Shown piece by piece: positions 40,605 to 56,500 of a DNA stretch of 64,000 bases. The notes beneath the pieces were generated by a model. The model worked only from the letters and a program-made list of their open reading frames with translations. It had not been told where the DNA came from and did not search any database. The stretch lies in assembly GCF_030362835.1 (NCBI RefSeq), contig NZ_JAUCGQ010000001.1, positions 969,451 through 1,033,450 of the forward strand, written 5' to 3'. Made by a program: the position numbers and the translations under genes. Numbering within the stretch: position 1 is the first letter of the stretch; every line of letters starts with the position of its first letter. The stretch comes from Cellulomonas alba (GTDB lineage: Bacteria; Actinomycetota; Actinomycetes; Actinomycetales; Cellulomonadaceae).

Positions 40605-40797
40605 GACGTGGTGGTCCTCTGGTCGGGCCCGACGCACCCGCCGGACGGCAGGCAGCCGGCCGTCGAGCGCCCGGGCGGGGCGCGGTCGCAGCGGCGCAGA
40701 TCCGCCACTCGCAGCGTGAACGCGCCGGTCGACGCCCAGGTTCCCACACGACCGTGCCACCTGCGGGACGACCTCCCCGCGATGCGACGATGGGGCC

Positions 40798-41367
40798 GTG
40801 ACCGACGACTCCCCCGCCCCGCAGACGACCGCCGACCCCGCTCAGCGCGCGCTCGCCGACGCCGTGCGCGAGATCGAGCACCACGTGGCCGCCGCCGGCT
40901 GGGACGCGCCGGTGCGGGTGTTCGCGCTGGTGCGGACGCAGGCCGCGCTGGCCGCCGAGCCGGGCCTCGCCGCGCAGCTGACGCCCGAGGTCCTCGCGGC
41001 CGCGGCGGCCGAGCCGTGGCACCTGACGTCGATCGAGCAGGAGGAGCTCCCCGGGGCGCCCGACCTCGAGTCGCTCCTGGCGGGCCTGACCTGGCCGGAG
41101 TCGGTCGACGGCGCCGCGGTGACGGTCGAGCGGATCGTGCTGCCGCCCGCGGCCGAGCAGCACGTGCCGGACGACGAGGCGGCCGCGCTCGAGTACCTGC
41201 TGACGCACCCCGAGCGGCAGGACGTGCGGCTCGCCGTCGGCGTGCTGCGCGGGGGCGCCGCGTGGTGCGCCGTGCGGACCCGCGCGAACGACGCCGACGA
41301 CGCGGTGGGGCACGGTCCGGACCTGGTGCCGGGGCTCGTCGCGGCGGTGCGCTCGACGCTCGCCTGA
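40798..41367 (+). CDS. PPA1309-family protein
   Basis: A 189-residue acidic cytosolic protein of the PPA1309 family, identified by EIEHHVAAAGWDAPVRVFALVRT near residue 25 and ERQDVRLAVGVLRGGAAWCAVRTR near the end. Function is unknown, but it is always found near the UPF0182 and YlbL-like protease genes. It starts at GTG 40798; a GACGAT box 6 bases upstream may be a leaderless -10. The last codons and the stop lie in the first copy of a 25-bp tandem repeat. Confidence 0.9.
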   Translation: MTDDSPAPQTTADPAQRALADAVREIEHHVAAAGWDAPVRVFALVRTQAALAAEPGLAAQLTPEVLAAAAAEPWHLTSIEQEELPGAPDLESLLAGLTWPESVDGAAVTVERIVLPPAAEQHVPDDEAAALEYLLTHPERQDVRLAVGVLRGGAAWCAVRTRANDADDAVGHGPDLVPGLVAAVRSTLA

Positions 41368-41421
41368 CGCGGTGCGCTCGGCGCTCGCCTGACGCGGCGC
41401 GCGCGACGCTCACGTGACGGG
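41347..41421. repeat. 25-bp tandem repeat spanning the PPA1309 stop codon
   Basis: Three copies of a 25-base unit (41347-41371, 41372-41396, 41397-41421); the first two differ at one base, the third is more diverged. Each carries a TGA. The first copy holds the true stop, so the gene's 3' end has been duplicated into the intergenic space. Confidence 0.9.
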
Positions 41422-41434
41422 CGCGACTGCCTCG

Positions 41435-42574
41435 TCAGGAGCAGGTCGGCAGCGTCTCGCCCTTGCCCTCACCGATCGCGGCGACGGCCTCGCGCGCCCC
41501 GTGCAGCGTCGACACCTTGGCCACGTGCAGGCCGCGCGGCACGTGGCCGACGACCTCGTTGCAGTTCGAGTCGGGCGCGAGGAACCACCGTGCCCCGTCG
41601 CGGACCGCCCCCGCCATCTTCTGCCGGATCCCGCCGATCGGGCCGACGTCTCCCGTGATGGAGATCGTGCCCGTCCCCGCGATGACCTGGCCCTTCGCCT
41701 CGTCCGCGGGCGTGAGCATGTCGATGATGCCCAGCGCGAACATCGTGCCGGCGCTCGGCCCGCCGATGTTGTCGATGCTGATCTTCACGTCGATCGGCGG
41801 GTGGAACGTGGGGTCGATGTAGATGCCGATCTGCGCCGAGCCGTCGGGGCGCTTGCCGGTGACGACCGGGACCTCGACCGACGAGCCGCCGCGCTTCACC
41901 GTCACCGTGATCGTCGCGCCCGGCTTCACGGCGGCCAGCACGTCGGCCAGATCCTGGTAGGTGGGGACGGCCTTGCCGTCGATCGCGGTGATGACGTCGC
42001 CCTTCTGGAGCTTGCCGTCCGCGCCGGACCCCTGCACCGTGCCCGCCACGGTGAGGGTGGCCGGCACCGCGTAGCCGAGCTCGGTGAGCGCCGCGACGGT
42101 CGCGTCCTCCTGCGACGTCGTCATCTGCTGCTGGTTCGTCTGGTCGATCTCGTCCTGCGACTTGCCCTCGGGGTACAGGTCCTCGCGAGGCAGCACGACG
42201 GACCACCGGGAGATCCAGCCGCGCAGCACGGTCAGGACCGTCGACGGGAACCCGGGGCCGCCCGTGCCGGACACCGTGACGAGGCGGAGCTGGCCCGTCG
42301 GGTCGTACGTCTGGGCGCCCTTGATCGTGATGAGCGGCGTCCCGTTGTCCGTCCCGAGCACGTCCTTGGTCGGTCCGGGGCTGTCGACCGCGTAGGGCGC
42401 GGGCGCGACCACGAGGACGCCCAGCAGCACGGCCGTGACCAGCGCGGAGACGGCAAGCACGACCGAGCGCCGGCTCGAGCGCATCGCCGGCTGCGCGGGC
42501 GGGAACCAGGCCGGGCCTCCGTCGGCGGGCGGCGCTGCGGGGTCGATCTCGTCCGGCACGCCATGATCATGCAC
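41435..42574 (-). CDS. PDZ and Lon-type (S16) serine protease, YlbL-like
   Basis: A 379-residue membrane-anchored protease. One helix lies near residues 35-58, a PDZ domain near 165-245 (DGKLQKGDVITAIDGKAVPTYQDLADVL) and an S16 Lon-like domain at the C terminus. The catalytic Ser is in NIGGPSAGTMFALG and Lys in GGIRQKMAGAV, the Ser-Lys dyad. The product is exposed outside and may degrade secreted or membrane proteins. GTG 42574 is the longest start; GTG 42559 is possible because a CATGAT box lies 6 bases before it. It lies next to UPF0182 and PPA1309, the usual conserved order. Confidence 0.93.
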   Translation of the reverse strand: MHDHGVPDEIDPAAPPADGGPAWFPPAQPAMRSSRRSVVLAVSALVTAVLLGVLVVAPAPYAVDSPGPTKDVLGTDNGTPLITIKGAQTYDPTGQLRLVTVSGTGGPGFPSTVLTVLRGWISRWSVVLPREDLYPEGKSQDEIDQTNQQQMTTSQEDATVAALTELGYAVPATLTVAGTVQGSGADGKLQKGDVITAIDGKAVPTYQDLADVLAAVKPGATITVTVKRGGSSVEVPVVTGKRPDGSAQIGIYIDPTFHPPIDVKISIDNIGGPSAGTMFALGIIDMLTPADEAKGQVIAGTGTISITGDVGPIGGIRQKMAGAVRDGARWFLAPDSNCNEVVGHVPRGLHVAKVSTLHGAREAVAAIGEGKGETLPTCS

Positions 42575-42770
42575 CAGCCACCTGGACGCCGCGTTCCCGG
42601 ACCGCGAGCGCCCGTCCGGCGTTCGCCGGGACCGCGACCTGCGGCGCGACCGGCTCGCGGTACGGCCCGCCTCCGGCGTCCGGTCGACCCCTGAGCGCCG
42701 TCGTGCGCGGCTCGCGGGCGGCGCCGCGCGCTACGGACCGCGGCGGCGGATCGCGGCGGGGCTGCGCGCG

Positions 42771-44012
42771 CTACCGGCCGCGGCGGTGGCGGGCCTGCCG
42801 CCAGATCGCCGCCGTGCCGATCAGCGCGACCGCGGCACCCGCGGCACCGAGCGCCGCCGCATCCCGCGCGCCGACCCGCCGGCCGGCGACCGCGAGCCGG
42901 CCCTGGACGCCCTCGAGCAGCACGTCGAGGCACTGCGCGCTGCTGTGCGCCGGCGCCCAGCCCGCCGCGATCAGCCCGTCGGACGCCACGGTCCACGGGT
43001 ACACGACGAACGCGAGCTCGCCCGACGCCGACGGCAGCACGCCCACCCGGTGCAGCCGCTCGGCGGTCCCGAACGCCGTGGCGGGCGCGAGCTCGATGCG
43101 CCGCATGCCCGACGCGGCCTCCACCTGCGTGGGCGTCAGCACGTCCGGCGCGCCGACGGTGAAGGTGCCGGCCATCCGCCGCTCGACGACGAGGCGGGCC
43201 GCGGCCGCGAGGTCGTCCACGTGGACGAACTGCCACTCGCGCACCGCACCCCGCACCGTCAGCAGCCGCGGAGCCTCGAAGTGCCGCGTGACGAACGTGT
43301 CGACGCCGCGTCCGACGACCGCGGCGGGGCGCAGCACCGTGAGCAGCGGGCTGCGCCGCCGGGCCGCGCGCGCGAGCACCGACTCGACCGCGAGCAGGTC
43401 GCCCACCAGGCCGTCGCGGGCGGCGTCGTCGAGGCGCTGCAGGGGCTCGTCGTCATGGATCAGCGGACGGTCGGGCCGCGCACCGTGCACGACCGCAGAC
43501 GTCACGGCCACGACGTGGCGCACCTTCGCGCTGCGCGCCGCCGCGAGGAGCCGCTGCGTGCGCGACACGAGGGCGGCCTGCCGCTCGTGCCAGCCGTGCC
43601 CGCGCACGGGCTCGCCGGGCAGCGCCACGAGGACGACGACATCAGCGCCCGCGAACGCGTCCTCGAGGGCGGTGGGTCGCACCGGGGTGGGCGCCGCGGG
43701 CACCGGATCGCCTCCTGCGGCGCGCGGCGCGGCGGCCGACCCGGCGGGGGTCGTCGACGGGACACCGGCAGCGGTCGTCGGCGCGACACCGGCGGCGCGT
43801 GCGCCGTGCGCGGTCGCGTCGGCGGCGGGCGCGTCGTCGAGCAGCGTCGAGCCGGGCCACGACCGCGCGACGGCAGCAGCGACGGGCCCGCGGCCGACGA
43901 CGACCACACGGTCGTCGTGCGTGCCGCCCGCTGCCGCCGCGCCGTTCGTCCCGGCCTCCGACGTCCGCGCTCGCGATCGCGCGCTGCGCCCTGAGCGAAC
44001 CGGCTCGTCCAC
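42771..44012 (-). CDS. SDR/NAD-dependent epimerase-like protein with C-terminal helix
   Basis: A 413-residue protein with a Rossmann start VVVVGRGPVAAAVARSW, but placed after about 34 residues of Arg/Ala-rich leader. A long Ala/Pro/Thr-rich insertion (about 55-110) follows, then the dehydrogenase core with VAVTSAVVHGARPD, LRPAAVVGRG and WQFVHVDDLAAAARLV, typical of extended SDRs. The YxxxK catalytic pair is not seen, so it may be non-catalytic or use another site. A hydrophobic helix near the C terminus (ALGAAGAAVALIGTAAI) may anchor it. GTG 44012. Neighbours are the same in other actinobacteria. Confidence 0.82.
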   Translation of the reverse strand: MDEPVRSGRSARSRARTSEAGTNGAAAAGGTHDDRVVVVGRGPVAAAVARSWPGSTLLDDAPAADATAHGARAAGVAPTTAAGVPSTTPAGSAAAPRAAGGDPVPAAPTPVRPTALEDAFAGADVVVLVALPGEPVRGHGWHERQAALVSRTQRLLAAARSAKVRHVVAVTSAVVHGARPDRPLIHDDEPLQRLDDAARDGLVGDLLAVESVLARAARRRSPLLTVLRPAAVVGRGVDTFVTRHFEAPRLLTVRGAVREWQFVHVDDLAAAARLVVERRMAGTFTVGAPDVLTPTQVEAASGMRRIELAPATAFGTAERLHRVGVLPSASGELAFVVYPWTVASDGLIAAGWAPAHSSAQCLDVLLEGVQGRLAVAGRRVGARDAAALGAAGAAVALIGTAAIWRQARHRRGR

Positions 44013-44146
44013 CCGTCCCCGCCCCTCGCCTGCCTGGTTACCGTGGTCCGACCAGCCTCGGCCGGTCGGCGCGCGCCGTGCGCCACCGCGCCGATCGTGA
44101 GCCCGTCGGCAGCCCGTCGTGGGCCCATCGTCGCAGGAGGTCCCGC

Positions 44147-45547
44147 GTGAGCCAGCACGACCCGACCGGTCCGTCCGACGTCCCCCCGTGGGAGCAGATG
44201 CTGCGCGCGATCCTCGGCGAGGAAGGTGCCGCCGACGCCGTGCGCGAGCTCCGCGCCCAGGGCTTCGACCCGGCGCAGCTCGCCGGCGCGAGCGAGCTGC
44301 CCACCGATCCTGCCACGGTCCGGGCGATGTTCGCGCAGGTCAACAGCATGATGGCGGCGGGTGGCGACGCCTCGGTGAACTGGCCGATGGCTCACGACCT
44401 CGCCCGGCAGGTCGCCGCGCAGGGCGGCGACCCGGCGCTGACGCCGGCCCAGTCGCGCGAGGTCACCGACGCGCTGGGCGTCGCCGAGCTCTGGCTCGAC
44501 GCCGCCACCGACCTGCCCCCGTCCGCCGGCACGCCCCGGGCCTGGAGCCGCGCGGAGTGGGTGGAGGCGACTCTCCCGACGTGGCGCACGCTCACCGAGC
44601 CCGTCGCCACGTCGCTCTCGGCCGCCCTGAGCGACGCGCTCGCCGGCGCGCTCCCCGAGGACCTCGGCGCGGACGTGTCGCTGCCGGGTGGGCTCGACCC
44701 GTCACAGCTGATGCGCCGCCTCGGCTCCGCGGTGTTCGGCATGCAGGTCGGCCAGGCGGCCGGCACGCTCGCGCGCGACGTCTTCGGCACCACGGACATC
44801 GGGCTCCCCCTGCTCGACCGGCCCGCACCCGCGCTCGTGGCGAGCAACGTCGCGGACTTCGCCGAGGACCTCGACGCTCCCGCCGAGGAGGTCCGCCTGT
44901 TCCTCGCGCTGCGCGAGGCCGCCGCGAGCCGCCTGTTCACGCACGTCCCGTGGCTCCGCGCACACCTGTTCGGCGCCGTGGCCGCGTACGCGCGCGGCAT
45001 CACGATCGACGCCGACCAGCTCGAGGAGGCCGTCCGCTCGATCGACCCGACGGATGCGTCCGCGCTCCAGCAGGCGCTCTCCGGCGGCGTGTTCGCGCCG
45101 CAGACGACTCCCGAGCAGGAGGCCGCGCTCGGCCGGCTCGAGACCGCGCTCGCGCTCGTCGAGGGCTGGGTCGACGAGGTGAGCACCAGCGCCGCGCTGC
45201 CCCACCTGCCCCACACCGTCGCGCTCCGCGAGATGATCCGCCGCCGCCGAGCCGCGGGCGGCCCCGCCGAGCAGACGTTCGCCAACCTCGTCGGCCTCGA
45301 GCTCCGGCCGCGCCGCCTGCGCGACGCCGCGACGTTGTGGGCGCAGATCGCGCGCGACGGTGGGCAGAGCGCACGCGACGCCGTGTGGGATCACCCCGAC
45401 CTGATGCCGACCGCCGAGGACCTCGACGACCCCGCGGGCTACACCGCGCGCCGCACGGCCGCCGCCGACGAGTCCGCGGCCGTCGACCGCGCGATCGCGG
45501 AGCTGCTGGGCGACGGGTCCGACGGGGGCGCCGCGTCGGGCGAGTGA
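44147..45547 (+). CDS. DUF2342/zinc-dependent-metalloprotease-family protein
   Basis: A 466-residue protein of the actinobacterial DUF2342 family (annotated in databases as zinc-dependent metalloprotease or F420-associated hydrolase). Segments such as VNWPMAHDLARQ, FGMQVGQAAGTLA and LFTHVPWLRAHLFGAVAAYARGI are family marks. No canonical HEXXH is visible, and the family-typical AAH near LFTHVPWL reads AAAS here, so catalysis is unproven. GTG 44147 follows AGGAGG. A unit on its own, divergent from the SDR, and part of the conserved core order. Confidence 0.88.
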   Translation: MSQHDPTGPSDVPPWEQMLRAILGEEGAADAVRELRAQGFDPAQLAGASELPTDPATVRAMFAQVNSMMAAGGDASVNWPMAHDLARQVAAQGGDPALTPAQSREVTDALGVAELWLDAATDLPPSAGTPRAWSRAEWVEATLPTWRTLTEPVATSLSAALSDALAGALPEDLGADVSLPGGLDPSQLMRRLGSAVFGMQVGQAAGTLARDVFGTTDIGLPLLDRPAPALVASNVADFAEDLDAPAEEVRLFLALREAAASRLFTHVPWLRAHLFGAVAAYARGITIDADQLEEAVRSIDPTDASALQQALSGGVFAPQTTPEQEAALGRLETALALVEGWVDEVSTSAALPHLPHTVALREMIRRRRAAGGPAEQTFANLVGLELRPRRLRDAATLWAQIARDGGQSARDAVWDHPDLMPTAEDLDDPAGYTARRTAAADESAAVDRAIAELLGDGSDGGAASGE

Positions 45548-45655
45548 CGCGAAGGTCGGCGTCGTGCCGCCGGTCATGCGCCGGCACGGCCGGTCCGCGC
45601 GGTGCCGGACGCCCGGCGCCATCTCCCCGTGGCCGAGCCGGGCGATCGCCGGCCG

Positions 45656-46297
45656 TCACACGCCGCGCGCCGCTCCCGTCTCGTCGTCGGCCTCGAGCGT
45701 GACGGGGTTGTCGCGCGGGTCGTCCTCGAGCACGTCGGCCTCCTCGTCCGCCTCCTCGGCCTCGTCGCCCGTCGGCTCACCCGCGCCGTCCGCGCGGTAC
45801 GAGTAGCCCTCGAGGAACCCGCGGGCCCGCTGCGTGCGTGGGTACGCGTCGAGCTCGGCCCAGAAGGCCGGTCCGTGGCCGTTGTGCAGCAGGTGCGCCA
45901 GCTCGTGCAGCAGCACGTAGTCGAGCACCCAGCGCGGCATGCCGCGCACGCGGTCGGAGATGCGGATGGTCCCGTCCGACGGCGTGCAGGAACCCCAGCG
46001 TCGCCCCTGGTTCGACGACCAGGCGACGCTCGTCGGCGTCGCACGACCGCCCAGGTACCGCGTCGACAGGTCGGCGGCACGCGCCGCGAGCTCGTCGTCC
46101 GACGGCCGGCGCCGGCGCTCCTGGGCGGCGAGCCGGGCCAGCATGCGCCGCACCCACTCGCGCTCCTGCGTGCGCGTGAACCGCGCGGGGATCGCCACGA
46201 TCGTCCGGTCGCCCTCGCGCCACGCCGAGACGGTCCGCACACGCTTGCGCGAGCGGCGGACCTCGACGTTCGCCAGGTCGGACGTGTGGTGCGTCAC
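45656..46297 (-). CDS. YgjP/SprT-like (M48-type) metallopeptidase
   Basis: A 213-residue cytosolic protein of the YgjP/DUF45 family. The zinc motif is HELAH within YVLLHELAHLLHNGHGPAFWAEL, where the later His is the third ligand. The family WGSC is present (WGSCTPSDGTIRIS). The acidic C-terminal tail (about 180-213) is unlike the family. The start at GTG 46297 is chosen because TAGCGT ends exactly 7 bases before it (leaderless); the longer frame upstream is antisense. Its 3' end converges on DUF2342. Confidence 0.9.
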   Translation of the reverse strand: MTHHTSDLANVEVRRSRKRVRTVSAWREGDRTIVAIPARFTRTQEREWVRRMLARLAAQERRRRPSDDELAARAADLSTRYLGGRATPTSVAWSSNQGRRWGSCTPSDGTIRISDRVRGMPRWVLDYVLLHELAHLLHNGHGPAFWAELDAYPRTQRARGFLEGYSYRADGAGEPTGDEAEEADEEADVLEDDPRDNPVTLEADDETGAARGV

Positions 46298-46304
46298 AGG
46301 GTGC

Positions 46305-46310
46305 ACGCTA
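46305..46310 (-). promoter_or_regulatory. Leaderless -10 box of the YgjP-like gene
   Basis: TAGCGT, then GCACCCT (7 bases), then GTG at 46297. It fixes the start of this gene. Confidence 0.7.
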
Positions 46311-46499
46311 GCGTGCCGCCCTCGACCGGAGCCCGCGCGGCCCACGGACGCCCGACACGCCGTGCGTCCTGCGCTGACCTGGGCCGACCCGGCGGTACCG
46401 CCCACTACTGTTGTCGTCGCTCGGTCGCTGGTGGAGACGCGGTCCGAGCCGCCGGCCGGCGACCCGGACCGGTGCCCCTGACACCGATGGAGGTCCCCC

Positions 46500-46658
46500 G
46501 TGGCCGAGACGTACGCAGGCGAGTTCTACTGCGTGAAGTGCAAGGAGAAGCGCGAGGCGGAGGGCGAGGTCGTCGTCTCCGAGTCGGGCCGCAAGATGGC
46601 CAAGGCCGTGTGCCCGGTCTGCGGCACCAAGCTGAACCGGATCCTCGGCAAGGCGTGA
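46500..46658 (+). CDS. DUF5679 small zinc-ribbon protein
   Basis: A 52-residue protein, too short for many gene finders: VAETYAGEFYCVKCKEKREAE at the start and CPVCGTKLNRILGKA at the end. The two CxxC pairs (CVKC, CPVC) form a zinc-ribbon-like site. DUF5679 proteins are conserved in actinobacteria and unknown in function. GTG 46500 has a GGAGG ribosome site 6 bases before it. A strong terminator follows 18 bases after the stop, so it is a single-gene unit. Confidence 0.92.
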   Translation: MAETYAGEFYCVKCKEKREAEGEVVVSESGRKMAKAVCPVCGTKLNRILGKA

Positions 46659-46675
46659 GCCACCGCTGAACCTCC

Positions 46676-46712
46676 GCGGAGGGGCGTCGTCCACGGGACG
46701 GCGCCCCTCCGC
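46676..46712 (+). terminator. Terminator after the DUF5679 gene
   Basis: A 17-bp stem (46676-46692 with 46696-46712, one G-U pair) with loop ACG. It lies 18 bases after the DUF5679 stop. Confidence 0.8.
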
Positions 46713-46805
46713 CGTTCTCCGGCCGGGGCGTCGGCTCCTGTGGACGGATCGCGACCGCCGTCCGCTGGGTCGTGCCACAGTGCGTGGCCGACGAGCGGAG
46801 GACGC

Positions 46806-47846
46806 GTGCGACTGCGCCCGGGGCTACGCGTTCTCCGTCGCGGACCGCACTCCGTGCAGATCGGTACCGACCCGCGCTGGGCCGTCCTGGTCGACGACCT
46901 GACCGCAGCCGAGGCGGACGCGCTCGCGACCCTCGGCGCGGGCGGCGACCTGACGGCCGTCGGGGCGCGCCAGGGCGTGGACGAGCGCCGCGCGGCGCGC
47001 ATCGTCGCCGACCTCGACCGCGCCGGGCTCGGCGGCGGAGCGCGCGACCGGCGGTCCGGCCAGCTGGGCGCCGAACCGCAGATCGCCGAGCTCGTGGGCC
47101 TCGGCGACGTCGTGTCCGCGCGCGCCGCCGGCTGCGTCGGCGTCATGGGCCTCGGGCCCGTGGGGCTCGCCATCGCCGCGACACTCGCGGCGGCCGGGGT
47201 CGGCACGCTGCTGCTCGACGACGCGCGCCCTGTGCGGTCGGGCGACATCGCCCCGGGCGGCTACGGCTGGGGCGACGTCGGTGCCCCGCGTGACGTCGTC
47301 GGCGCACGTCGGCTGCGCGACGTGGCGCCCGAGGTGGCACTGACCGGCGGGGCGCCCGACGTCCTCGTCGTCGTCGACACGGACGTGGCCGATCCCGAGC
47401 AGGGGCCGCGGCTGGTCGCGGCGGGAGTGGTGCACCTGTCGGTCGTCGAGCGAGAGGGCGACGTGCTGGTGGGGCCGCTCGTCGTGCCCGGCGACGGCGC
47501 CTGCCTGCGGTGCCTCGACCTGCACCGCGCCGACGCGGACCCTCAGTGGTCCGACGTCGCTCCCCAGCTGGGCACCCAGGTGGGCGCGGCCGCCGGCGTC
47601 GCGCCCCCGACCGGGTTCGCCGCCGGAAGCGTGCTCGCGGTCGCCGCGGTGAGCGCGGGGCTCGCCGCAGCGGCGGTGCTCGCGCACCTCGACGGTGGTC
47701 GCTCCCCCCTGCGGGGCGTCACCTACGAGGTCGTCGCGCCGTACGCGCTGCCGCTGCGGCGGGAGTGGGCGGCGCACCCGTCGTGGGGGTGCGCCGCGCC
47801 GCCCACGTGGTCCGGCGTGCCGGTGGCCGAGGCACCGACGGTCTGA
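46806..47846 (+). CDS. ThiF/E1-like protein of the TOMM-precursor-binding type
   Basis: A 346-residue protein. The N-terminal 80 residues resemble the leader-peptide-binding domain of TOMM cyclodehydratase partners; a Rossmann-like E1 domain follows, with GLGPVGLAIAATLAAAGVGTLLLDD. The usual E1 Asp/Asn/Arg site (SNLxRQ) is replaced by RPVRSGDIAPGG and only one CxxC (CLRC) is seen, so it probably does not adenylate. No peptide precursor or other TOMM enzyme is nearby. GTG 46806 with a GGAGG ribosome site. The gene is in the same place beside WhiB7 in other actinobacteria; role unknown. Confidence 0.8.
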   Translation: MRLRPGLRVLRRGPHSVQIGTDPRWAVLVDDLTAAEADALATLGAGGDLTAVGARQGVDERRAARIVADLDRAGLGGGARDRRSGQLGAEPQIAELVGLGDVVSARAAGCVGVMGLGPVGLAIAATLAAAGVGTLLLDDARPVRSGDIAPGGYGWGDVGAPRDVVGARRLRDVAPEVALTGGAPDVLVVVDTDVADPEQGPRLVAAGVVHLSVVEREGDVLVGPLVVPGDGACLRCLDLHRADADPQWSDVAPQLGTQVGAAAGVAPPTGFAAGSVLAVAAVSAGLAAAAVLAHLDGGRSPLRGVTYEVVAPYALPLRREWAAHPSWGCAAPPTWSGVPVAEAPTV

Positions 47847-47927
47847 CGTCCCGGGACCGGGCCGGCGCCGGCCCCGGGCGCCGCCGGACCGGCGCACTCG
47901 TGCAGCCGGTCCGGCGGTGAGCCGCCG

Positions 47928-48272
47928 TCAGGCGGCCGGGTTCTTGCGCGGCCGACCACGGCCGCGCTTCATCGGGACGACGACCCCGCCGATGAAGACC
48001 TCTCCGCCCCAGACGCCCCAGGGCTCGGCGCGTTCGATGGCGCCGGCCAGGCAGCCGTCGCGAAGCGGGCAGTCGCGGCAGAGAGCCTTGGCCAGCTCCA
48101 CCTCGGCGGTTCGCTCGGCGAACCACAGCTCCGGGTCGTGGGAACGGCACGGGACGAGGGTCTGGACCAGGTCGTCGAAGACCGTGGCGTCGTCGGTGGT
48201 CTCGGGGCTGCCGGCCGGCCAGGGACCCGATCCACCCTGGTTGATGGTGTCGAGCAGCGTCGTGAGCCGCAC
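47928..48272 (-). CDS. whiB7: WhiB7-type regulator with AT-hook
   Basis: A 114-residue Fe-S regulator that binds RNA polymerase sigma factor and activates intrinsic-resistance genes. Four cysteines (C42 in LVPCRSH; CRDCPLRDGC) bind the cluster, the GVWGG turn is present, and the C terminus has an AT-hook RGRGRPRK, which sets the WhiB7 subclass. GTG 48272 is preceded by an AGGAGG ribosome site 7 bases away. A 390-base leader with uORF and hairpin lies upstream, followed by the promoter with an AT-rich element for autoactivation. Neighbour uvrD2 has the same orientation. Confidence 0.95.
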   Translation of the reverse strand: MRLTTLLDTINQGGSGPWPAGSPETTDDATVFDDLVQTLVPCRSHDPELWFAERTAEVELAKALCRDCPLRDGCLAGAIERAEPWGVWGGEVFIGGVVVPMKRGRGRPRKNPAA

Positions 48273-48338
48273 GATGTCCTCCTGCTTCTTGCTGGTGAGC
48301 GTCTTGCGTCGGGTGCCGGATCGGCGACCGCTGGCTCA

Positions 48339-48352
48339 CCCGCCCGAGCGGG
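48339..48352 (-). other. Small hairpin in the whiB7 leader
   Basis: CCCGC-CCGA-GCGGG, plus GGTGAGC (48294-48300) complementary to GCTCACC (48334-48340), gives alternative stems close to the whiB7 ribosome site. Confidence 0.45.
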
Positions 48353-48359
48353 AAAGACG

Positions 48360-48394
48360 AAGGCCGCGGATCCGAGAACGGACTCCGCGGCCTT
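48360..48394 (-). terminator. Attenuator hairpin in the whiB7 leader
   Basis: A perfect 11-bp stem (AAGGCCGCGGA at 48360-48370, pairing with 48384-48394) with a 13-base loop lies 20 bases after the uORF stop and ahead of whiB7, followed on the minus strand by CGTCTTTCC. It fits an attenuator that ends transcription unless translation of the uORF stalls. Confidence 0.75.
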
Positions 48395-48413
48395 GATGAC
48401 CTGTCGGCCTGGT

Positions 48414-48596
48414 TCAGGCCGGTGGAGTCCCGAGTCGGAGTCGGGGGTCGGACGTGCGCTTGCTCGCGTTCACGACTGCTGCCGTGTCGACGGCCCCAAA
48501 GCGCGAGACGTGCTCGGACGCGGGCATACGCCACCCCTGGAGAAGGGCAGCGCACGGAGCCGCGTTGCGATACGTCGCGGTGATCTGAATGTCCAT
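48414..48596 (-). CDS. Leader peptide (uORF) of whiB7
   Basis: A 60-codon open frame starting MDIQITATYRNAAPC, with a perfect AAGGAGGTG ribosome site about 10 bases before ATG 48596. It lies between the whiB7 promoter (48669-48698) and the attenuator (48360-48394). It shows no similarity to known proteins and is probably a regulatory peptide whose translation measures ribosome stress by antibiotics. An in-frame start 14 codons upstream (48638) lacks a ribosome site and was not chosen. The length is greater than the uORFs known in mycobacteria. Confidence 0.65.
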   Translation of the reverse strand: MDIQITATYRNAAPCAALLQGWRMPASEHVSRFGAVDTAAVVNASKRTSDPRLRLGTPPA

Positions 48597-48668
48597 CTCG
48601 GCTGCCACCTCCTTCTGGGGATCGTTCCTGGCCGTCACTGGCCGGAGCTCACGTTGGGGACGTGTGCC

Positions 48669-48706
48669 ACCCTAGGCCCGGTCGATCGACCCGGACAACC
48701 GATTAA
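48669..48706 (-). promoter_or_regulatory. whiB7 promoter with AT-rich element
   Basis: On the minus strand TTGTCC (48698-48693), an 18-base spacer and TAGGGT (48674-48669). TTAAT at 48706-48702 lies just upstream of the -35, the position of the AT-rich element bound by the AT-hook of WhiB7, so positive autoregulation is expected. Confidence 0.7.
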
Positions 48707-48795
48707 CCACGAATTCTTGAAAGAACCGGGAAGTCGGTTTCACCTGGCCCTTCGGCCGCCTCGGCGGCGCCCCTCGGGGCCCGGTGCGGGCGACC

Positions 48796-50796
48796 TCAGC
48801 GCCGCCGCGCCTCGCCGCCGGCGACCGCCGCGAGCACACCGTCGCCGATGACGCGCAGCTTCTGCTGGCCGATGCCGCGCACCGTGGCGAGCTCCTGCAG
48901 CGTCCGTGGCCGCAGCCGTGCGACCTCGTCGATCTGCGCGCTCGTGAGCAACGACCGAGCCGGCACCCCGTCGGCGTGGGCCCGCTCGGCGCACCAGGCG
49001 GTGAGCCGCTCGACGACCCGCGCGTCCGTGGCCACGGACTCGGGGCGGGTCGCGGCATCACTCGCGGGGCCGCCCTGCGGCCAGACGTCGCGCAGGAACC
49101 GCGTCGCCGAGCGCGACGCCCGGCCACCGGGCCGACCGGCGCGGGCGAACGACACCTGCAGGTGCTCGCGTGCGCGCGTGACGCCGACGTAGAGCAGGCG
49201 GCGTTCCTCGGCGACGGCCGCCGGTGTCTCCGCCTGCAGCGTGGGGATCAGCCCCTCGCGCGCGCCGACCAGGAACACCGCGTCCCACTCGAGCCCCTTG
49301 GCGGCGTGGAGCGACGCGAGCGTGACGCCGTCGATCGTGGGCGCGTGCTGTGCCGACGAACGCTCGTCGAGCTCCGCGACGAGGTCCGCGACCGTGGCGC
49401 GCTCCCGGCCCTCGGGCGGCGCGGCCGCGAGCGCGTCGGCGAGGCCGACGAGTGCCTGCATCGCGTCCCACCGCTCGCGCACCGCGCCCCGCGCCGGCGG
49501 CGGCTCCTCGGCCCAGCCGACGTTGCGCAGGATGTCGCGCACCGCCTCGGGCATCGGGACGTCCGGATCGGCGGCGCGTGCGCCACCGCGGAGCAGCACC
49601 AGCGCGTCGCGGACGTCACGACGCGCGAAGAACCGCTCGTTGCCGCGCACCTGGTAGCCGACCCCGGCCTCGGCGAGCGCCGCCTCGAACGCCTCGGATT
49701 GCGCGTTCGTGCGGTAGAGGATCGCGATCTGCGCGGCGGGCACCCCGCTCGCGACGAGCCGCGCCGCGGCCCGCGCGACACCGGCTGCCTCGGCCTCGTC
49801 GTCCGGGTAGGCGACGTAGCCGACCTCGGGGCCGTCGGGTCGCTGCGCGCGCAGCTCGAGCGGGCGCGGCCCGCCCGCGCGCAGCGTCTGCGCGATCACG
49901 CGGTTCGCCAGTGCGACGACCTGCGGGGTGGACCTGTAGTCGCGCACGAGCTCGACCGTCGTCGCGCGCGGGTAGCGCTGGGTGAACGAGAGCAGGTGGT
50001 GCGGCGTGGCGCCGGCGAACGAGTAGATCGTCTGGCTCGGGTCGCCGACGACGCACAGCTCGTTGCGGCCGCCGAGCCACTGCTCGAGCAGGTGCTGCTG
50101 CAGGGGGCTGACGTCCTGGTATTCGTCGACCACGAAGTGCGTGTACTGCTCGCGCACGGTCTCCGCGACGTCGCGGCGCTCGGCGAGCATCGCGGCGAGC
50201 AGCAGCAGGACGTCCTCGAAGTCGATGACGGCCCGCTCGTCCTTGACCTGCTCGTACGCCGCCATCAGCCGCGCGACTGCCTGCGCGTCCGCGCCAGCGG
50301 GGGCCGGGCGACCCGTCGCGGCGAGCGCCTTCTCGTAGTCGTCCGGGACGACGAGGCCGACCTTGGCCCACTCGATCTCCGAGGCGAGGTCGCGCACGCT
50401 CTCGCGGTCGACGGACAGCCCCACGCGGCGCGCGGCCTCGGCGACGAGCTGCGCCTTGGCCTCGACCAGGCGCGGCGGCGCACCGCCCACCACCTTCGGC
50501 CAGAAGAACCCGAGCTGGCGCAGGGCCGCGGAGTGGAAGGTGCGCGCCTGGACACCCGGCGCGCCGAGCTCGCGGAGCCGCGTGCGCATCTCGCCCGCGG
50601 CGCGCGCCGTGAACGTCACCGCCAGCACGTTGGCCGGGCGGTAGACCCCCGTGCGGATGCCGTACGCGATGCGGTGCGTGATCGCGCGCGTCTTGCCGGT
50701 GCCCGCGCCGGCGAGCACCCGCACCGGACCGCGGAGCGCGAGCGCGACGGCGCGCTGCTCGGGGTCGAGCGCGTCGAGGAGGGCGTCGGCGGACAT
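48796..50796 (-). CDS. uvrD2: UvrD2-like ATP-dependent DNA helicase with HRDC domain
   Basis: A 666-residue SF1A helicase. Walker A VLAGAGTGKTR near residue 27, Walker B FVVDEYQDVSPLQ near 220, motif III GDPSQTIYSFAGA, motif V GLEWDAVFLVG and motif VI YVGVTRARE are all intact. The C terminus has an HRDC domain (SAQIDEVARLRPRTLQEL...GIGQQKL) typical of actinobacterial UvrD2. ATG 50796 is preferred to the GTG at 50820, because a GACACT box ends 7 bases before it. DNA unwinding and repair is the family role. It lies upstream of the whiB7 promoter region and diverges from the mycoredoxin gene. Confidence 0.93.
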   Translation of the reverse strand: MSADALLDALDPEQRAVALALRGPVRVLAGAGTGKTRAITHRIAYGIRTGVYRPANVLAVTFTARAAGEMRTRLRELGAPGVQARTFHSAALRQLGFFWPKVVGGAPPRLVEAKAQLVAEAARRVGLSVDRESVRDLASEIEWAKVGLVVPDDYEKALAATGRPAPAGADAQAVARLMAAYEQVKDERAVIDFEDVLLLLAAMLAERRDVAETVREQYTHFVVDEYQDVSPLQQHLLEQWLGGRNELCVVGDPSQTIYSFAGATPHHLLSFTQRYPRATTVELVRDYRSTPQVVALANRVIAQTLRAGGPRPLELRAQRPDGPEVGYVAYPDDEAEAAGVARAAARLVASGVPAAQIAILYRTNAQSEAFEAALAEAGVGYQVRGNERFFARRDVRDALVLLRGGARAADPDVPMPEAVRDILRNVGWAEEPPPARGAVRERWDAMQALVGLADALAAAPPEGRERATVADLVAELDERSSAQHAPTIDGVTLASLHAAKGLEWDAVFLVGAREGLIPTLQAETPAAVAEERRLLYVGVTRAREHLQVSFARAGRPGGRASRSATRFLRDVWPQGGPASDAATRPESVATDARVVERLTAWCAERAHADGVPARSLLTSAQIDEVARLRPRTLQELATVRGIGQQKLRVIGDGVLAAVAGGEARRR

Positions 50797-50959
50797 CGCG
50801 CACAGTGTCTCAGCCCGCACCGACAGCGCCGGCCCCCTCGGGCCGCCCCCTGTGGACGCGACGCCGACCGGGAATCGACCGGCGGGTCGGGACGTTGCGC
50901 GGTGCGCAGGCGCGAGACACGCGCGCCCGACCTATCGAACCGACGTCGCGAGGAACCCG

Positions 50960-51217
50960 ATGACGACCACGCTGCCCGAGCCCGGCACGATCACGATGTA
51001 CACGACCACGTGGTGCGGGTACTGCCGACGGCTCAAGACGCAGCTCGCCTCGGCCGGCATCGGCTACACCGAGATCGACGTCGAGGACCACGAGGACGCG
51101 GCGTCGCTCGTCGAGTCCATCAACGGCGGCAACCGCACGGTGCCGACCGTCGTCTTCCCGGACGGGTCGGCGGCCACGAACCCGTCGCTGGCCGAGGTCC
51201 AGGCCCGACTGAGCTGA
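50960..51217 (+). CDS. mrx1: Mycoredoxin 1-like glutaredoxin
   Basis: An 85-residue thioredoxin-fold protein with the active site TTWCGYC near residues 17-23 and the cis-Pro TVPTVVFPDG, as in mycoredoxin-1. It reduces mycothiol mixed disulfides in actinobacteria. ATG 50960 with a GAGGAA ribosome site. Located between divergent uvrD2 and convergent nudC, its neighbours in M. tuberculosis too. The gene is short and lies within a longer open frame whose upstream part is not coding. Confidence 0.95.
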   Translation: MTTTLPEPGTITMYTTTWCGYCRRLKTQLASAGIGYTEIDVEDHEDAASLVESINGGNRTVPTVVFPDGSAATNPSLAEVQARLS

Positions 51218-51234
51218 CGTCGGACGCGCCGCCG

Positions 51235-52260
51235 TCAGAACGCGGCCGCCCCCGCGGGCAGCGGGCCGCCGAACCAGTCCTCGACCAGCGCCCGCGCGAT
51301 GGATGACCGTCCCGGCGGGATGACCTCGCCGTCGACCACGGCCCGCGCGAGCTCCTCGCGTGTGAACCAGCGCGCGTCGGTCAGCTCGACGCCGTCGACC
51401 CGCACGTCCCCCGTCGTGGCGCGGGCGTGGAACCCGACCATGAGGGACGCGGGGAACGGCCACGGCTGACTGCCCCGGTACTTGACCTCTCCGACGACGA
51501 CGCCGGTCTCCTCGAGCACCTCGCGGCGCACCGCGTGCTCGAGCGACTCGCCGGCCTCGACGAACCCGGCGAGCGTCGACCATCGGCCCGCCGCCCACGC
51601 CGCGGCGTGCCCGAGCAGCAGCCGGTCGGCGTCGTCGATCACGGCCATGATCACCGCCGGGTCGGTCCGGGGGTAGTGCTCCGAGCCGTCGACCTCGCAG
51701 GTGCGGACCCAGCCGGCCTGCGTGATGCGGGTCGGGCCGCCGCAGCGGGGGCAGCGCGGGTGGCGCGAGTGCCATGCGTCGAGCGCGACGGCGGCGGTGG
51801 CGAGGCCCGCGTCGCGCGCACCCAGGTCGGCGCCGACCGTGCGCAGGGCGGCCCGGACCAAGCCCGACGGGAGCTCGCGGGGCGCTGGCGGCGCCTCGCG
51901 GCGGTGCACGAGGACGTCGCTCGGGGATCCCGTGGGCGGAGCGGGCCGCGTCGCGCGCACCCGGCGAGCCAGGTAGCGGCCGCCGTCGTCCGCGCCGAGC
52001 AGGAGCCACTGCTCCGCGTCGTGGGCGGTCCCGGGCTCGTCGGCCGGCGTGCCCTCGAGCGTGGCCGCGGCCTCGTCGGCGTCCGCCGGGGTCAGCAGCG
52101 CGAGCTCGCCGTCGGCGCTGAGGACGACGGACGAGTCGCCGACCAGGAGGACGCGCGTCGTGGGGTCGGCGCGCGCGTCGTCCACGGCCGAGGCGTCAGC
52201 GCGGAGATGAGCAGCGCGGTCGACGAGCGCGCGCGAGAGCGGGAGCTCGTCGGGGATCAC
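51235..52260 (-). CDS. nudC: NAD(+)/NADH diphosphatase
   Basis: A 341-residue Nudix hydrolase that splits NADH and NAD caps. N-terminal domain, then a zinc ribbon (CPRCGG near residue 168; the second pair is reduced to one Cys in RTCEVDGSEHYPR), then the Nudix box GFVEAGESLEHAVRREVLEETGV near 230 and the NudC signature SQPWPFPASLM. The start is set at GTG 52260, since TACCGT ends exactly 7 bases upstream; GTG 52269 lies inside that box. Leaderless. It diverges from the phosphotransferase gene. Incomplete zinc site is worth noting. Confidence 0.94.
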   Translation of the reverse strand: MIPDELPLSRALVDRAAHLRADASAVDDARADPTTRVLLVGDSSVVLSADGELALLTPADADEAAATLEGTPADEPGTAHDAEQWLLLGADDGGRYLARRVRATRPAPPTGSPSDVLVHRREAPPAPRELPSGLVRAALRTVGADLGARDAGLATAAVALDAWHSRHPRCPRCGGPTRITQAGWVRTCEVDGSEHYPRTDPAVIMAVIDDADRLLLGHAAAWAAGRWSTLAGFVEAGESLEHAVRREVLEETGVVVGEVKYRGSQPWPFPASLMVGFHARATTGDVRVDGVELTDARWFTREELARAVVDGEVIPPGRSSIARALVEDWFGGPLPAGAAAF

Positions 52261-52267
52261 GGCGCCC

Positions 52268-52273
52268 ACGGTA
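52268..52273 (-). promoter_or_regulatory. Leaderless -10 box of nudC
   Basis: TACCGT, then GGGCGCC (7 bases), then GTG at 52260; it corrects the start by three codons. Confidence 0.68.
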
Positions 52274-52391
52274 CCCAGCGCCGAGACGTGAGCCGGTCAC
52301 GGCCGCTACACACGGCCGACGGTCGGACGCGCCGGACGAATCGGACGTGACACGCCGAGGGCGCGCGCCCGGGAGGCGGCTGTGCCGCACC

Positions 52392-52397
52392 TAGGCT
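52392..52397 (+). promoter_or_regulatory. Leaderless -10 box of the phosphotransferase gene
   Basis: TAGGCT, then 6 bases (GAGCGC), then GTG at 52404. Confidence 0.65.
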
Positions 52398-52403
52398 GAG
52401 CGC

Positions 52404-53351
52404 GTGGTCCGATCGCCCCTCGCACTCGCCGCCCTCGCGACGGTCGCCGTCCCCGGACTGGACGCGTTCGACGTCCGCCGGCCGGCTCAACCCGGCACGG
52501 ACTTCGACATCGCGGTGGTCATCGACGCGACCCGCAAGCGCTGGGTGGTGCGCGCGCCCGTCAGCGCTGCCGCCGGTGCGGCGCTCGAGGCCGAGGTGGT
52601 GCTGCTCGAGGCGCTCGACGAGCAGGTGCAGCGCGGCGCGCTGCCGTTCTCCGTGGCACGCCCCGCCGGGTTCGCGCACCTGCCCGAGGGCGGCCGCGCC
52701 GCGGTGCACGCCGAGATCCCCGGGACCGCGCTGGCCGTCGAGCACCTCCGTCCCGGGCCGGGACTCGCCGCCTCCGTCGGGCGCGCGATCGCCGCGATCC
52801 ACGAGCTGCCGACGTCGATCGTCGAGAACGCCGGGCTGCCGGTGTACGAGCCCGAGACGTACCGCGCGCGGCGTCAGGCGGAGGTCGACGAGGCCGCCCG
52901 CACGGGCCGCGTCCCCGCGACGCTGCTGCGGCGCTGGGAGGAGCGGCTCGAGGACGTGGCCCTGTGGCGCTTCAGCCCGACCGTGGTGCACGGCGACGTG
53001 ACGGGCGAGCGGCTGCTGGTGCACGACGACGAGGTGTCGGGCGTCCTGCACTGGGGTGACGCGTGCGTCGCCGATCCCGCCGACGACCTCGCGTGGCTGC
53101 TCGTCGCGGCGCCGCCCGAGGCGGCGGAGTCGCTCATGGAGGCGTACCAGCTGCGCCGGACCGAGCTCCTCGACCCGCACCTGGCCGACCGGGCGCTGCT
53201 GTCGGGCGAGCTCGCGCTCGTGCGGTGGCTGCTCTACGGGGTGCGGACGAAGAATGCGGACGTGGTCGAGGACGCGGTGTCGATGCTCGAGGACCTCGAC
53301 GCGCACACGCGGGCGCTCGACGAGGCGGAGCCGGAGCCGTCGCTGGCCTGA
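52404..53351 (+). CDS. Aminoglycoside/macrolide phosphotransferase-like protein
   Basis: A 315-residue kinase-like protein of the APH family. The N lobe has the Lys-like RWVVRAPVS; the catalytic loop is VVHGDVTGERLLV, in which the Asn that binds metal in HGDxxxxN is an Arg; the metal Asp of WGDACVADPADDLAWLL is present. The change makes ordinary phosphotransfer uncertain. Such genes are conserved between nudC and the AdnB helicase in actinobacteria, so a resistance role is not implied. Leaderless GTG 52404. The C terminus ends in the first unit of a 16-bp tandem repeat. Confidence 0.85.
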   Translation: MVRSPLALAALATVAVPGLDAFDVRRPAQPGTDFDIAVVIDATRKRWVVRAPVSAAAGAALEAEVVLLEALDEQVQRGALPFSVARPAGFAHLPEGGRAAVHAEIPGTALAVEHLRPGPGLAASVGRAIAAIHELPTSIVENAGLPVYEPETYRARRQAEVDEAARTGRVPATLLRRWEERLEDVALWRFSPTVVHGDVTGERLLVHDDEVSGVLHWGDACVADPADDLAWLLVAAPPEAAESLMEAYQLRRTELLDPHLADRALLSGELALVRWLLYGVRTKNADVVEDAVSMLEDLDAHTRALDEAEPEPSLA

Positions 53352-53355
53352 CGGC

Positions 53356-53451
53356 CTGCTCGCCTCGCGGCCTGCTCGCCTGACCGCGTGCTCGCCTGAC
53401 TGCTTGCTCGCCTGACTGCGTGCTCGCCTGACGGCCTGCTCGCCTGACTGC
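53356..53451. repeat. Six 16-bp tandem repeats after the phosphotransferase stop
   Basis: Units of 16 bases, consensus CTGCTCGCCTGACTGC, run head to tail from 53356 to 53451 (six copies). The preceding bases 53340-53355, holding the stop, are a diverged copy. Five of six carry TGA, so the gene's 3' end seems to have expanded. Not CRISPR: there are no spacers. Confidence 0.93.
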
Positions 53452-53526
53452 GGCCTCGCCAGACCGCCACGTCCTGGCCGGGTCGACCGGTCAGGTCGCC
53501 CGCCTGACAGCTGCGTCGCGGCCGAG

Positions 53527-56500
53527 TCAGGCGTTCCCGACTGAGTCGGGCGCCGCGCGCCGGTCGGCGACCGCGCGGCGAAGGAGCGCCACGATCTCGT
53601 CCTCCCCCATCAGCCGGTCCGGGTACACCGTCGTGCCCGTCGCGACGTAGCAGAACGCCGCACGCACGCGATCCACCGGAACGCCCGACCAGCGGGACCA
53701 GGCCAGGCGGTAGACGGCGAGCTGGATCTCGCGCGCGGCGCGTGCGCGCGGGTCGGACGGCGGCGCGCCGGTCTTCCAGTCGACCACCACCACGCCCTGC
53801 TCGTCCGGCGACAGGTCCGAGCGGTCGTCGTCGACGAAGACGGCGTCGATCCGCGAGCGCAGCACGTACCCGTCGACCGACGTCTCGACGTCGACCTCGA
53901 CGGCGACCGGCTCGCGTCGCGCCCAGGGGCTCGCGAGGAACGCGACGCGAAGCGCTGCCTCGTCGGGGGCAGTCGGGGCGGTCTCGTCGTCCGCTCCCGG
54001 GAGCTCGTCGACGTCGACGAGTGCGGCGCGGCCGAACCAGCCCTCGACCCACGCGTGGAACTGGGTGCCGCGGCGTGCCTGCGGGGACGGGCGCGAGGGC
54101 ACCGGCCGGCGCAGCCCGAGTGCGAACTCGTCGGGGTCGGCGGCGAGCCGGACGAGCGCGGACGCGGACAGGTGCGACGGGAGCTCGACCTCCTGCAGGG
54201 GAGCCGACGCACGCTCCTGCTCGTCGAGCAGCCGGTCCGCGAGCGCGGCCCAGCGGCCCGTCAGGTCCGTCGAGCCGACGTCGCCGGCGGCCGCACGCAC
54301 CCACGTCGCCGCCCGCTCCACGGCCGCACGGCGCGACTCGGTCGCCGTCCCGAACGGGTCGACGGGCCACACCGCCGGGTCGCCGGCCGCCTGCTCGGGC
54401 TTGCCGTCCACAGGCGTCGGCGCGTCCGCCCAGGCGTCGATCTCGATGAGCCCGTCGACGGCGAGCTCGTCGAGGAACAGCGAGATCGGTCGCGGCCGGA
54501 CGCCGTCGCCCCACCACGCCGCACTCAGCAGGAGCTCGGAGCGCGCCCGCGTGAGCGCGACGTACGCGAGGCGGCGCTCCTCGGCCACCTCGTGCTCCCC
54601 TGCGGCCTGCAGGAACGCCTGGCGACGGCGCTCGAGGTCCTTGCCGTCGGCCGCTCCCGCGTACTCGAAGCTCGGCAGGTCGTCCCGGTCGCCGCGCAGC
54701 GGGTACGGCAACGAGCCGAGGCCCTTCAGCCAGGCAGAGTCCTTCGGGCCGTCCTTGCCCTGGGTGGCAGTCGCGGGCAGGCCGCCGTCGACGAGGCCCG
54801 CGACGGCGACGACGTCCCACTCGAGCCCCTTCGCGCCGTGGACGGTGATGAGCTGCACCGCGTCCGGGTCGGGCTCGACGACCGGCAGGTCGAGGCCGTT
54901 CTCGCGCTCCTCGGCGGCCTCGAGCCACGCGAGGAACCCGCCGAGCGTGGGGTGGTCGGAGGACTGCGCGAACTCGACGGCGACGTCGCGGAACGCGTCG
55001 AGCTGGGCACGCGCCCGCGCGGGCGCCGTGACCGACCGGGCCGCGAGCTCGATGTCGAGGCCCAGGAGGCGCTCCGCCTCGGCGACGAGCTCGGGCACGG
55101 GGAGGTACGCGTGCGCGCGCAGGGTGCGCAGGACGCGCGCGAGCTCCGCGACCCGCAAGCGACCCGCGGGCGACAGCGCGCGGCCCGAGCGGCTCGTCCA
55201 CTCGCGCTCCGGGTGCTCGCCCACGGCGTCGAGCGCGTCGACGATGCTGCGCTCGTCCACGACGTCGGCCTGGACCGGCGCACCCTCCTCGCCCGTGCGC
55301 TCACGCCGGTTCGCGCGGCCGGTCTGGTCAGCGGCCCACGCCGCGAGCGCGTGCAGGTCCGCCGCACCGAGCCGCGTGCGCGCGCCCGTGAGCAGCCGCA
55401 CGAGCGCATCGCCGCGCGTGGGGTCGTGCGCCGCCTGCAGGACCGCGACGAGGTCGACGACCTCGGGTGCCGCGAGGAGGCCGCCGAGGCCGACCACCTC
55501 GACGGGTAGGTCCTCGGCACGCAGCGCACGTCGCAGGGCGCCGAACTGCGACCGCTTGCGGCACAGCACCGCGGCGGTGACGCGTTGCTGGTCGGAACCC
55601 GCGGGGCGCCACCGCTCCTTGACGAACCGCGCGACCGCGCGCGCCTCGTCCTCGACCGTCGCCGCGACGTGCGCATGCACCCGGCCGGGACCCGCGTCGG
55701 GACGCGCCGTCAGGACGGGAACCTCGACCCGTGCCGCGGCGGCGGCCCGCAGCGGGGCGGCGATCCGGTTCGCGGCGTCGAGGATCGCGCGATCGTTGCG
55801 CCACGACGTCGACAGCCAGTGCACGTCCGCGGAACGGCGCGTCCCGTCGGCGTCGACCGCGCGGAACGTCGCCGGGAACCGCTCGAGGCCGCCCGCGCTC
55901 GCGCCGCGCCAGCCGTAGATCGACTGCTGCGGGTCACCGACCGCGGTCACGGGGTGCCCGTCGCCGAACAGGGCGCGCAGGAGCTCCAGCTGCGCGTACG
56001 AGGTGTCCTGGTACTCGTCGAGCAGCACGACCCGGAACCGGTCGCGCTCGGCGGCGCCGACCTCGGGCACGTCGCGCGCGAGCCGGGCCGCGAGCGCGAC
56101 CTGGTCACCGAAGTCGATCGCGTCGGCCGCGCGCTTGCGGGCGCGGTACTCCGCGACGAGGTCCAGCACCCGAGCCCGCTCGCCGAGTGAACGCACCAGG
56201 CCGCGCACCTCGGCCATGAGCGATCCGGGCGTCGCCTCGATCGCCTCGACGATCCCGTCGATCCGGCGCCGCGCCTCATCGGGGTCGAGAAGGTGCTCGT
56301 CGAGCGCGCCCGACAGCGCGAGCACCGCCTCGGTGACCGTCGAGGTGGCCGCGTCGGTGTCGAGGTCGCCGAGCCACGCCTCCACGACGTCGGCCGCGAG
56401 CTGCCACTGCGCGGCCTCGCCGAGCAGCCGCGCCGACGGGTCGAGCCCGAGCCGCAGCGCGTGGTCGACCACGAGCGACGCGGCGTACGAGTTGTACGTG

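Follow-up and report, generated by a model that had tools for sequence, protein, structure and literature searches.

The window, as the whole 64,000-nucleotide stretch of Cellulomonas alba DNA analysed here is called, contains on its minus strand a gene encoding a 114-residue protein preceded by a long leader, the features of which are collected in Table 1. The product matched the Whib domain of Pfam (PF02467, E 8.1e-15), its top match in the PDB was the WhiB7 structure 7kif (E 2e-27) and it was without a match in NCBIfam; the domain together with the AT-hook identifies the gene as whiB7. The next open reading frame upstream (48796-50820) is UvrD/PcrA helicase-like and scored under the curated cut-offs of both families. 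Beside whiB7 lies a gene for a ThiF-family protein of 368 residues (46740-47846; PF00899), which also matched, weakly, a TOMM leader-binding domain, and positions 46500-46658 encode a small, zinc-ribbon-like DUF5679 protein of 52 residues.

Table 1. Features of the whiB7 leader and gene in the window.
Feature	Position	Strand	Remarks
AT-rich element TCGTGGTTAATCGG	48712-48699	minus	upstream of -35; strict pattern also in relatives
-35 hexamer TTGTCC	48698-48693	minus	
-10 hexamer TAGGGT	48674-48669	minus	spacer to -35 of 18
Shine-Dalgarno sequence AAGGAGGTGG of uORF	48614-48605	minus	
uORF, 60 codons	48596..48414	minus	60 aa; ATG 48596, stop TGA 48416-48414
Copy of mid-uORF element CAGGGGTGGCGTATGCCC	48539-48522	minus	degenerate; predicted pause, RNA 3' end 48526, +1 48525
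Anti-terminator 5' strand	48439-48416	minus	predicted; TCCGA 48439-48435, GGACTCC 48430-48424, CGGCCT 48421-48416
Anti-terminator 3' strand	48393-48371	minus	predicted; equals terminator 5' arm and loop (AGGCCG, GGAGTCC, TCGGA)
Intrinsic terminator hairpin	48394-48360	minus	arms 48394-48384 and 48370-48360; 11-bp perfect stem extended within loop
whiB7	48272..47928	minus	GTG start 48272; 114 aa; Whib domain, GVWGGE, RGRPRK AT-hook

The leader has an AT-rich element, the site where WhiB7 acts, ahead of the -35 hexamer, a Shine-Dalgarno-led uORF between the promoter and whiB7, and an intrinsic terminator between the uORF and whiB7. An earlier sequence-only reading had described a complete WhiB7-type leader comprising the AT-rich promoter, ribosome site, 60-codon uORF, 11-bp hairpin and whiB7, and every part was located on the minus strand. 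That reading placed the uORF stop about 20 bases ahead of a perfect hairpin, in agreement with the measured gap of 19 nt and arms that are 100% complementary. The hairpin is followed by the T-containing tail CGTCTTTCC and the fold of the terminator stretch gave a z of -4.96. The uORF peptide had no match in Pfam or NCBIfam, and Rfam returned nothing in the leader and two sub-threshold matches within 40000-56000. A separate 6-bp hairpin, GGCCTG AAC CAGGCC (48406-48420, minus strand), encloses the uORF stop codon; a similar stop-codon hairpin (GGTCATC..GATGACC around TGA) is present in the leader L061 of Cellulomonas hominis.

Two sets of related loci were compared with the window. The first was assembled from 80 loci among the matches listed (80 of 526) from a scan of named genomes and 30 loci from a search of the genus and order. 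In that search whiB7 turned up in every one of the 36 genomes of the genus and, overall, in 48 of 58, counts that include the window's own. Removal of L107, which has no WhiB7 core pattern, and of 18 duplicates from the 110 loci left 91 that were non-redundant, 80 of which have a terminator starting with an arm like GGCCGCGG; the other 11 were left out. A class-wide search gave a WhiB7 match in 239 of 295 genomes. The second set comprised 89 leaders from this search, made up of the 30 best matches, with the window itself removed, and 60 more hand-picked to spread across families, the window's family among these; a uORF and hairpin were accepted in 83 and the remaining six were dropped. Both the terminator pattern and the element pattern were settled after inspection of the loci to which they were applied, and the element matrix was afterwards tested more strictly: it was applied leave-one-out, with near-identical uORFs excluded, and to the second set. 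At least 16 genomes of family f19, of the same order, were without a WhiB7 match, and two WhiB7 matches per genome were found in G057, G230, G318 and G325.

All 80 first-set leaders with the terminator pattern have a Shine-Dalgarno-led uORF, 34-134 codons long, that ends 7-25 nt before the terminator, with stop-to-hairpin distances bounded by the search at 40 nt in the first set and 60 nt in the second. A reading frame of this kind ending within 40 nt of the hairpin occurred in 80 of 80 real leaders versus 59 of 1600 dinucleotide shuffles, and a full 7/7 Shine-Dalgarno match in 62 of 80 versus 2 of 1600. At least four T residues lie within 10 nt after the hairpin in 77 of the 80. The strict arrangement of AT-rich element and promoter was found in 61/80 of these leaders and in 20/83 of the more distant ones. 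Median uORF length was 63.5 codons in the 80-leader set and 73 codons over 163 leaders, 129 of which exceed 60 codons, so the window uORF is of ordinary size. The sequence-only reading had supposed it longer than those known from mycobacteria, which did not hold: uORFs of f22, the label assigned in the analysis to a Mycobacterium-like family, are 12-95 residues long with a median of 67.5 (n = 10), the 12-residue one being probably miscalled. Start codons are probably miscalled in some leaders (L091, L137, L172).

The end of the window uORF is predicted to pair with the 5' arm and loop of the terminator in three blocks (TCCGA/TCGGA, GGACTCC/GGAGTCC and CGGCCT/AGGCCG; 18 bp). The predicted anti-terminator fold has an energy of -36.6 kcal/mol when the terminator 3' arm is absent, and once that arm is present the terminator fold is the predicted minimum (-52.0). 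The terminator still folds (-28.4) when ribosome cover is mimicked by leaving out all RNA up to 12 nt beyond where the stop codon starts. The strand to be covered extends into the stop codon in the window, and in many loci 15-22 nt separate the end of the anti-terminator arm from the stop, which is at the limit of what a terminating ribosome covers. The terminator core GGAGTCC occurs in 57 of 72 first-set leaders, and this core with its matching arm sets the first set apart from most other whiB7 families sampled.

The pairing was evaluated with a helix score for the last 60 nt of the uORF against the terminator arm. The score was at least 7 in 59/80 first-set leaders, and its mean over the 80 leaders was 6.98, whereas synonymous shuffles of two kinds averaged 4.75 and 5.08; 26/80 leaders individually reached 0.05 or below, and since the loci share descent these P values overstate independence. 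Generic duplex energy between the same partners had a z of -2.9 in the window and carried no signal over the 80 leaders (mean z 0.003). Among 19 loci with variant terminator cores, the uORF fits its own terminator better than the canonical one in 13, ties in one (L040) and fits the canonical one better in five (L036, L039, L061, L064, L128). Examples of co-variation with the own terminator are GTGGAGTC/GACTCCAC (L091, L097) and GCGGACCC/GGGTCCGC (L127); the advantage of the own terminator is just 0.5 in L031, L047 and L070. True pairs of uORF and terminator scored 6.17 versus 4.92 (sd 0.13, 60 permutations) for permuted pairs over 144 leaders, which are the 163 less 19 duplicates and include 72 of the first set. 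Within the second set, only 3/83 leaders exceeded their synonymous shuffles at 0.05 or below in the helix test. The score of family f34 lay under that of its shuffles (7.8 versus 8.9), the best terminator from another family outscored the own one in f34 (5.3 versus 3.9) and f17 (5.8 versus 5.3), and the own terminator tied, within 0.1, in f33, f32 and f39. Prediction and co-variation point to a mutually exclusive anti-terminator involving the uORF, both in the window and among the first-set leaders; support for the pairing is good in these Cellulomonas leaders and the window but does not extend to all families.

These features suggest that the window whiB7 leader very likely works by ribosome-gated transcription attenuation, with two predicted folds that exclude each other. 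In unstressed cells the ribosome would reach the uORF stop and cover the 5' strand of the anti-terminator, the terminator would form and RNA polymerase would stop before whiB7. Antibiotics or starvation would slow ribosomes within the uORF, leaving that strand free to capture the 5' arm of the terminator, and whiB7 would be transcribed. Ribosome-mediated control had already been proposed from the layout, and the proposal is supported by the layout, the identity of the gene and conservation. Alternatively, the hairpin might simply terminate leaky transcription, with the uORF a by-product and induction due solely to autoactivation by WhiB7 at the promoter; the AT-rich promoter element common among the first-set leaders and the weak anti-terminator test in the second set are consistent with this. 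Against it stand the match of the uORF end to the terminator arm in the first set, Shine-Dalgarno-led uORFs far above the shuffles and, as stated in the available part of PMC11550727, published dependence on the uORF in other actinobacteria. We consider a plain terminator with autoactivation alone extremely improbable.

Translation of the window uORF is predicted from its Shine-Dalgarno-led frame, and selection on the peptide lends no support to it. The pooled dN/dS over 18 independent close pairs was 0.996 (pN 0.097, pS 0.097), single pairs ranged from 0.27 to 2.53 with one pair having no synonymous change, and the identical codons read in the other two frames gave 1.05 and 0.85. Selection on the whole peptide was thus not detected at the sequence level, although the frame stays open. 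The sequence-only reading had made attenuation depend on conserved uORF codons. Taken literally, the codons are not conserved, and attenuation is left standing because the start, open frame, stop position, terminator arm and a nucleotide element are kept while the peptide is not. With the window peptide as query against the 58 genomes, matches were obtained in 17 at E up to 0.1, and only the window's own was at a whiB7 locus.

The uORFs nevertheless have a peptide motif in common, [LV]AP[T]..FQG.A[VL][PS], raising the alternative that the uORF encodes a specific arrest peptide or an amino-acid sensor in which the LAPT..FQG.AVP residues or alanines stall the ribosome. Its A-P and Q-G columns are frequent across the 80 uORFs (A 62/80, P 67/80, G 68/80), and alanine accounts for 11 of the 60 residues in the window; alanine starvation is reportedly linked to mycobacterial whiB7, going by the title of Poulton 2024. 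However, the motif codons are also constrained at third positions, being skewed relative to background (GGG 54/68, GCT 36/42, GTG 35/38, CCC 57/67). Amino-acid substitutions leave the bases in place: in 66 of 76 uORFs codon 5 is NYG, although V, L, A, P or M is encoded, and in 61 of 76 the last base of codon 4 is T, although A, G, T, S or R is encoded. Isoptericola-type leaders have similar nucleotides in frame 1, and family f35 has them, less strongly, in frame 2. With the pooled dN/dS and a mean alanine content of 12.8% in the first set versus 26.5% in f22 added, an arrest peptide or sensor is judged very unlikely. The third positions, frame changes and dN/dS likewise make the motif unlikely to be conserved as a peptide unit, and alanine sensing in the window leader was rejected as not supported by composition. 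The preferred reading is that the uORF serves as a translated ruler, the peptide itself seeming of little importance. The f22 uORFs (L162-L170, L172; n = 10) are alanine-rich at the mean given above, a composition that would fit alanine sensing there and not in the window.

Judged from its sequence, the window leader is an instance, from a further host, of the known whiB7/wblC attenuator. That uORF attenuator is reportedly the subject of Mycobacterium and Streptomyces work by Burian and Thompson in 2018 and by Lee, Lee and Roe in 2022. As in those organisms, a promoter, a Shine-Dalgarno-led uORF, a Rho-independent terminator and an anti-terminator alternative are combined. The position of the ribosome also decides between terminator and anti-terminator in the trp attenuator of E. 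coli, which has a leader pause, and does so in the ilvB1 attenuator of M. tuberculosis according to the portion of PMC13236596 at hand. Both of these sense specific codons, whereas no peptide selection was detected in the whiB7 leaders compared. The whiB7/wblC mechanism is described in sections of PMC11550727 and PMC13236596, and the attenuator is also treated in passages of PMC4128351 and PMC13393426. A literature search on whiB7 together with Cellulomonas listed one general review.

The nucleotide element, CAGGGGNNNGCTSTGYCC, lies within the uORF about 94 nt past the start codon. It was recognised in 65/80 first-set uORFs, those above the 99% background level with the leave-one-out matrix, and was absent or unrecognised in 15/80. 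The presumed +1 of the element is 94.3 nt (sd 15.5) from the start codon versus 105.8 nt (sd 38.0) from the stop. The best-conserved columns are G-11, G-10, Y-1 and G+1, with G at -10 and -11 in 69 and 70 of 76 relatives, a pyrimidine at -1 in 73/76 and G at +1 in 67/76. The same columns constitute the consensus RNA polymerase pause as given in excerpts of PMC10268239; PMC6336406, likewise seen in excerpt, is a further pause paper from which no consensus letters were taken. Copies in frame 1 were found in Isoptericola, Xylanimonas, Xylanimicrobium and one Georgenia (eight cases, one of which, L091, comes from a miscalled start), and these, like the copies in frame 2, speak against a signal carried by the peptide or its codons.

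The matrix trained on the first set was also applied at threshold to the second set, where it recognised the element in 39/83 uORFs versus 66/4150 codon-permuted and 546/4150 synonymous controls, and did not recognise it in 44/83 of these distant leaders. By family the counts were f34 17/22 (frame 0), f35 8/10 (frame 2), f17 5/5, f33 4/8, f1, f2 and f5 1/1 each, f39 1/12, f32 0/9, and f41 and f46 0/2 each. The f35 copies score 7.6-10.7, near the threshold, which 129/500 of the f35 synonymous shuffles also reach, and the f33 matches are out of place at 228-364 nt from the start. The element stands at its usual position in several families but not in the majority: pause-like copies occur in the relatives of the window, f34, f35 and f17, and in f22 the element was recognised in one of ten Mycobacterium-like leaders and unrecognised in nine. 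The near and distant leaders in which it is unrecognised indicate that whiB7 attenuation does not generally require the element. The window copy is degenerate, with its +1 at nt 72 of the uORF, the core bases present and A rather than G or C at -2; it scores 6.3 bits versus the 99% background threshold of 7.56, a score equalled or exceeded by 10/400 background windows and 51/2000 codon permutations.

A mid-uORF RNA hairpin was considered as a general feature and rejected (mean z 0.2 against synonymous shuffles, 58 leaders). Since its best-conserved columns coincide with the consensus pause and no local hairpin is favoured, the element is predicted to be a polymerase pause that gives the ribosome time to load. 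Relatives keep it at a constant spacing from the start codon, and it would hold RNA polymerase while the ribosome loads and catches up. Conservation extends beyond the published pause consensus, to +3, +4, -5 and -12, and the upstream bases GCRCCCACC are third-position biased too, as might be anticipated were the element a protein-binding site or a distant RNA pairing partner rather than a pause. This alternative carries an appreciable probability, short of an even chance; it is opposed by the identity of the four best-conserved columns with the consensus pause, by the hairpin result, and by the fixed distance from the start codon, which fits ribosome loading.

A predicted pause in such a leader has a precedent in that of vmlR in Bacillus subtilis, in which, according to the part of PMC9226507 available, RNA polymerase pausing is proposed to give time for uORF translation. 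Both leaders, that of the window by prediction, precede a drug-induced resistance gene and combine a uORF with a terminator and anti-terminator, and that of vmlR differs in its tripeptide uORF, its additional NusG TTNTTT pause motif, and its unrelated sequence and gene (PMC9226507, same part). In a literature search joining whiB7 with pausing, uORF and attenuation, no pause in the whiB7 leader was mentioned in the titles or the beginnings of abstracts among the matches listed (12 of 85). The mid-uORF pause-like element is possibly a new feature of the known attenuator.

For several actinobacterial families we tentatively propose, as a reading with a little less than an even chance of being correct, that the uORF is a peptide-agnostic ruler containing a pause site about 60-140 nt past the start, read in different frames, and an anti-terminator strand near the stop, the pause holding the polymerase until the ribosome loads. 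In actinobacteria, intrinsic resistance to ribosome drugs has WhiB7 as a master switch; if the peptide were irrelevant and a built-in pause set the timing, this would account for the response of a single leader to many classes of drug. If the ruler reading is true, long uORFs follow from the need to hold the pause and the anti-terminator strand at fixed places, and broad drug sensing follows from the lack of a peptide code. Antibiotic stalling of ribosomes within the whiB7 uORF is, according to a 2025 paper (PMC12121999), as yet untested. The reading of an irrelevant peptide and a pause gives base-level predictions that can be tested by in-vitro transcription and reporters. As a separate observation, the window uORF has a strong hairpin of its own around the pause-like element, at 48525-48556 (minus strand), formed by CGTGCGCTGCCC with GGGGTGGCGTATG (z -1.68).
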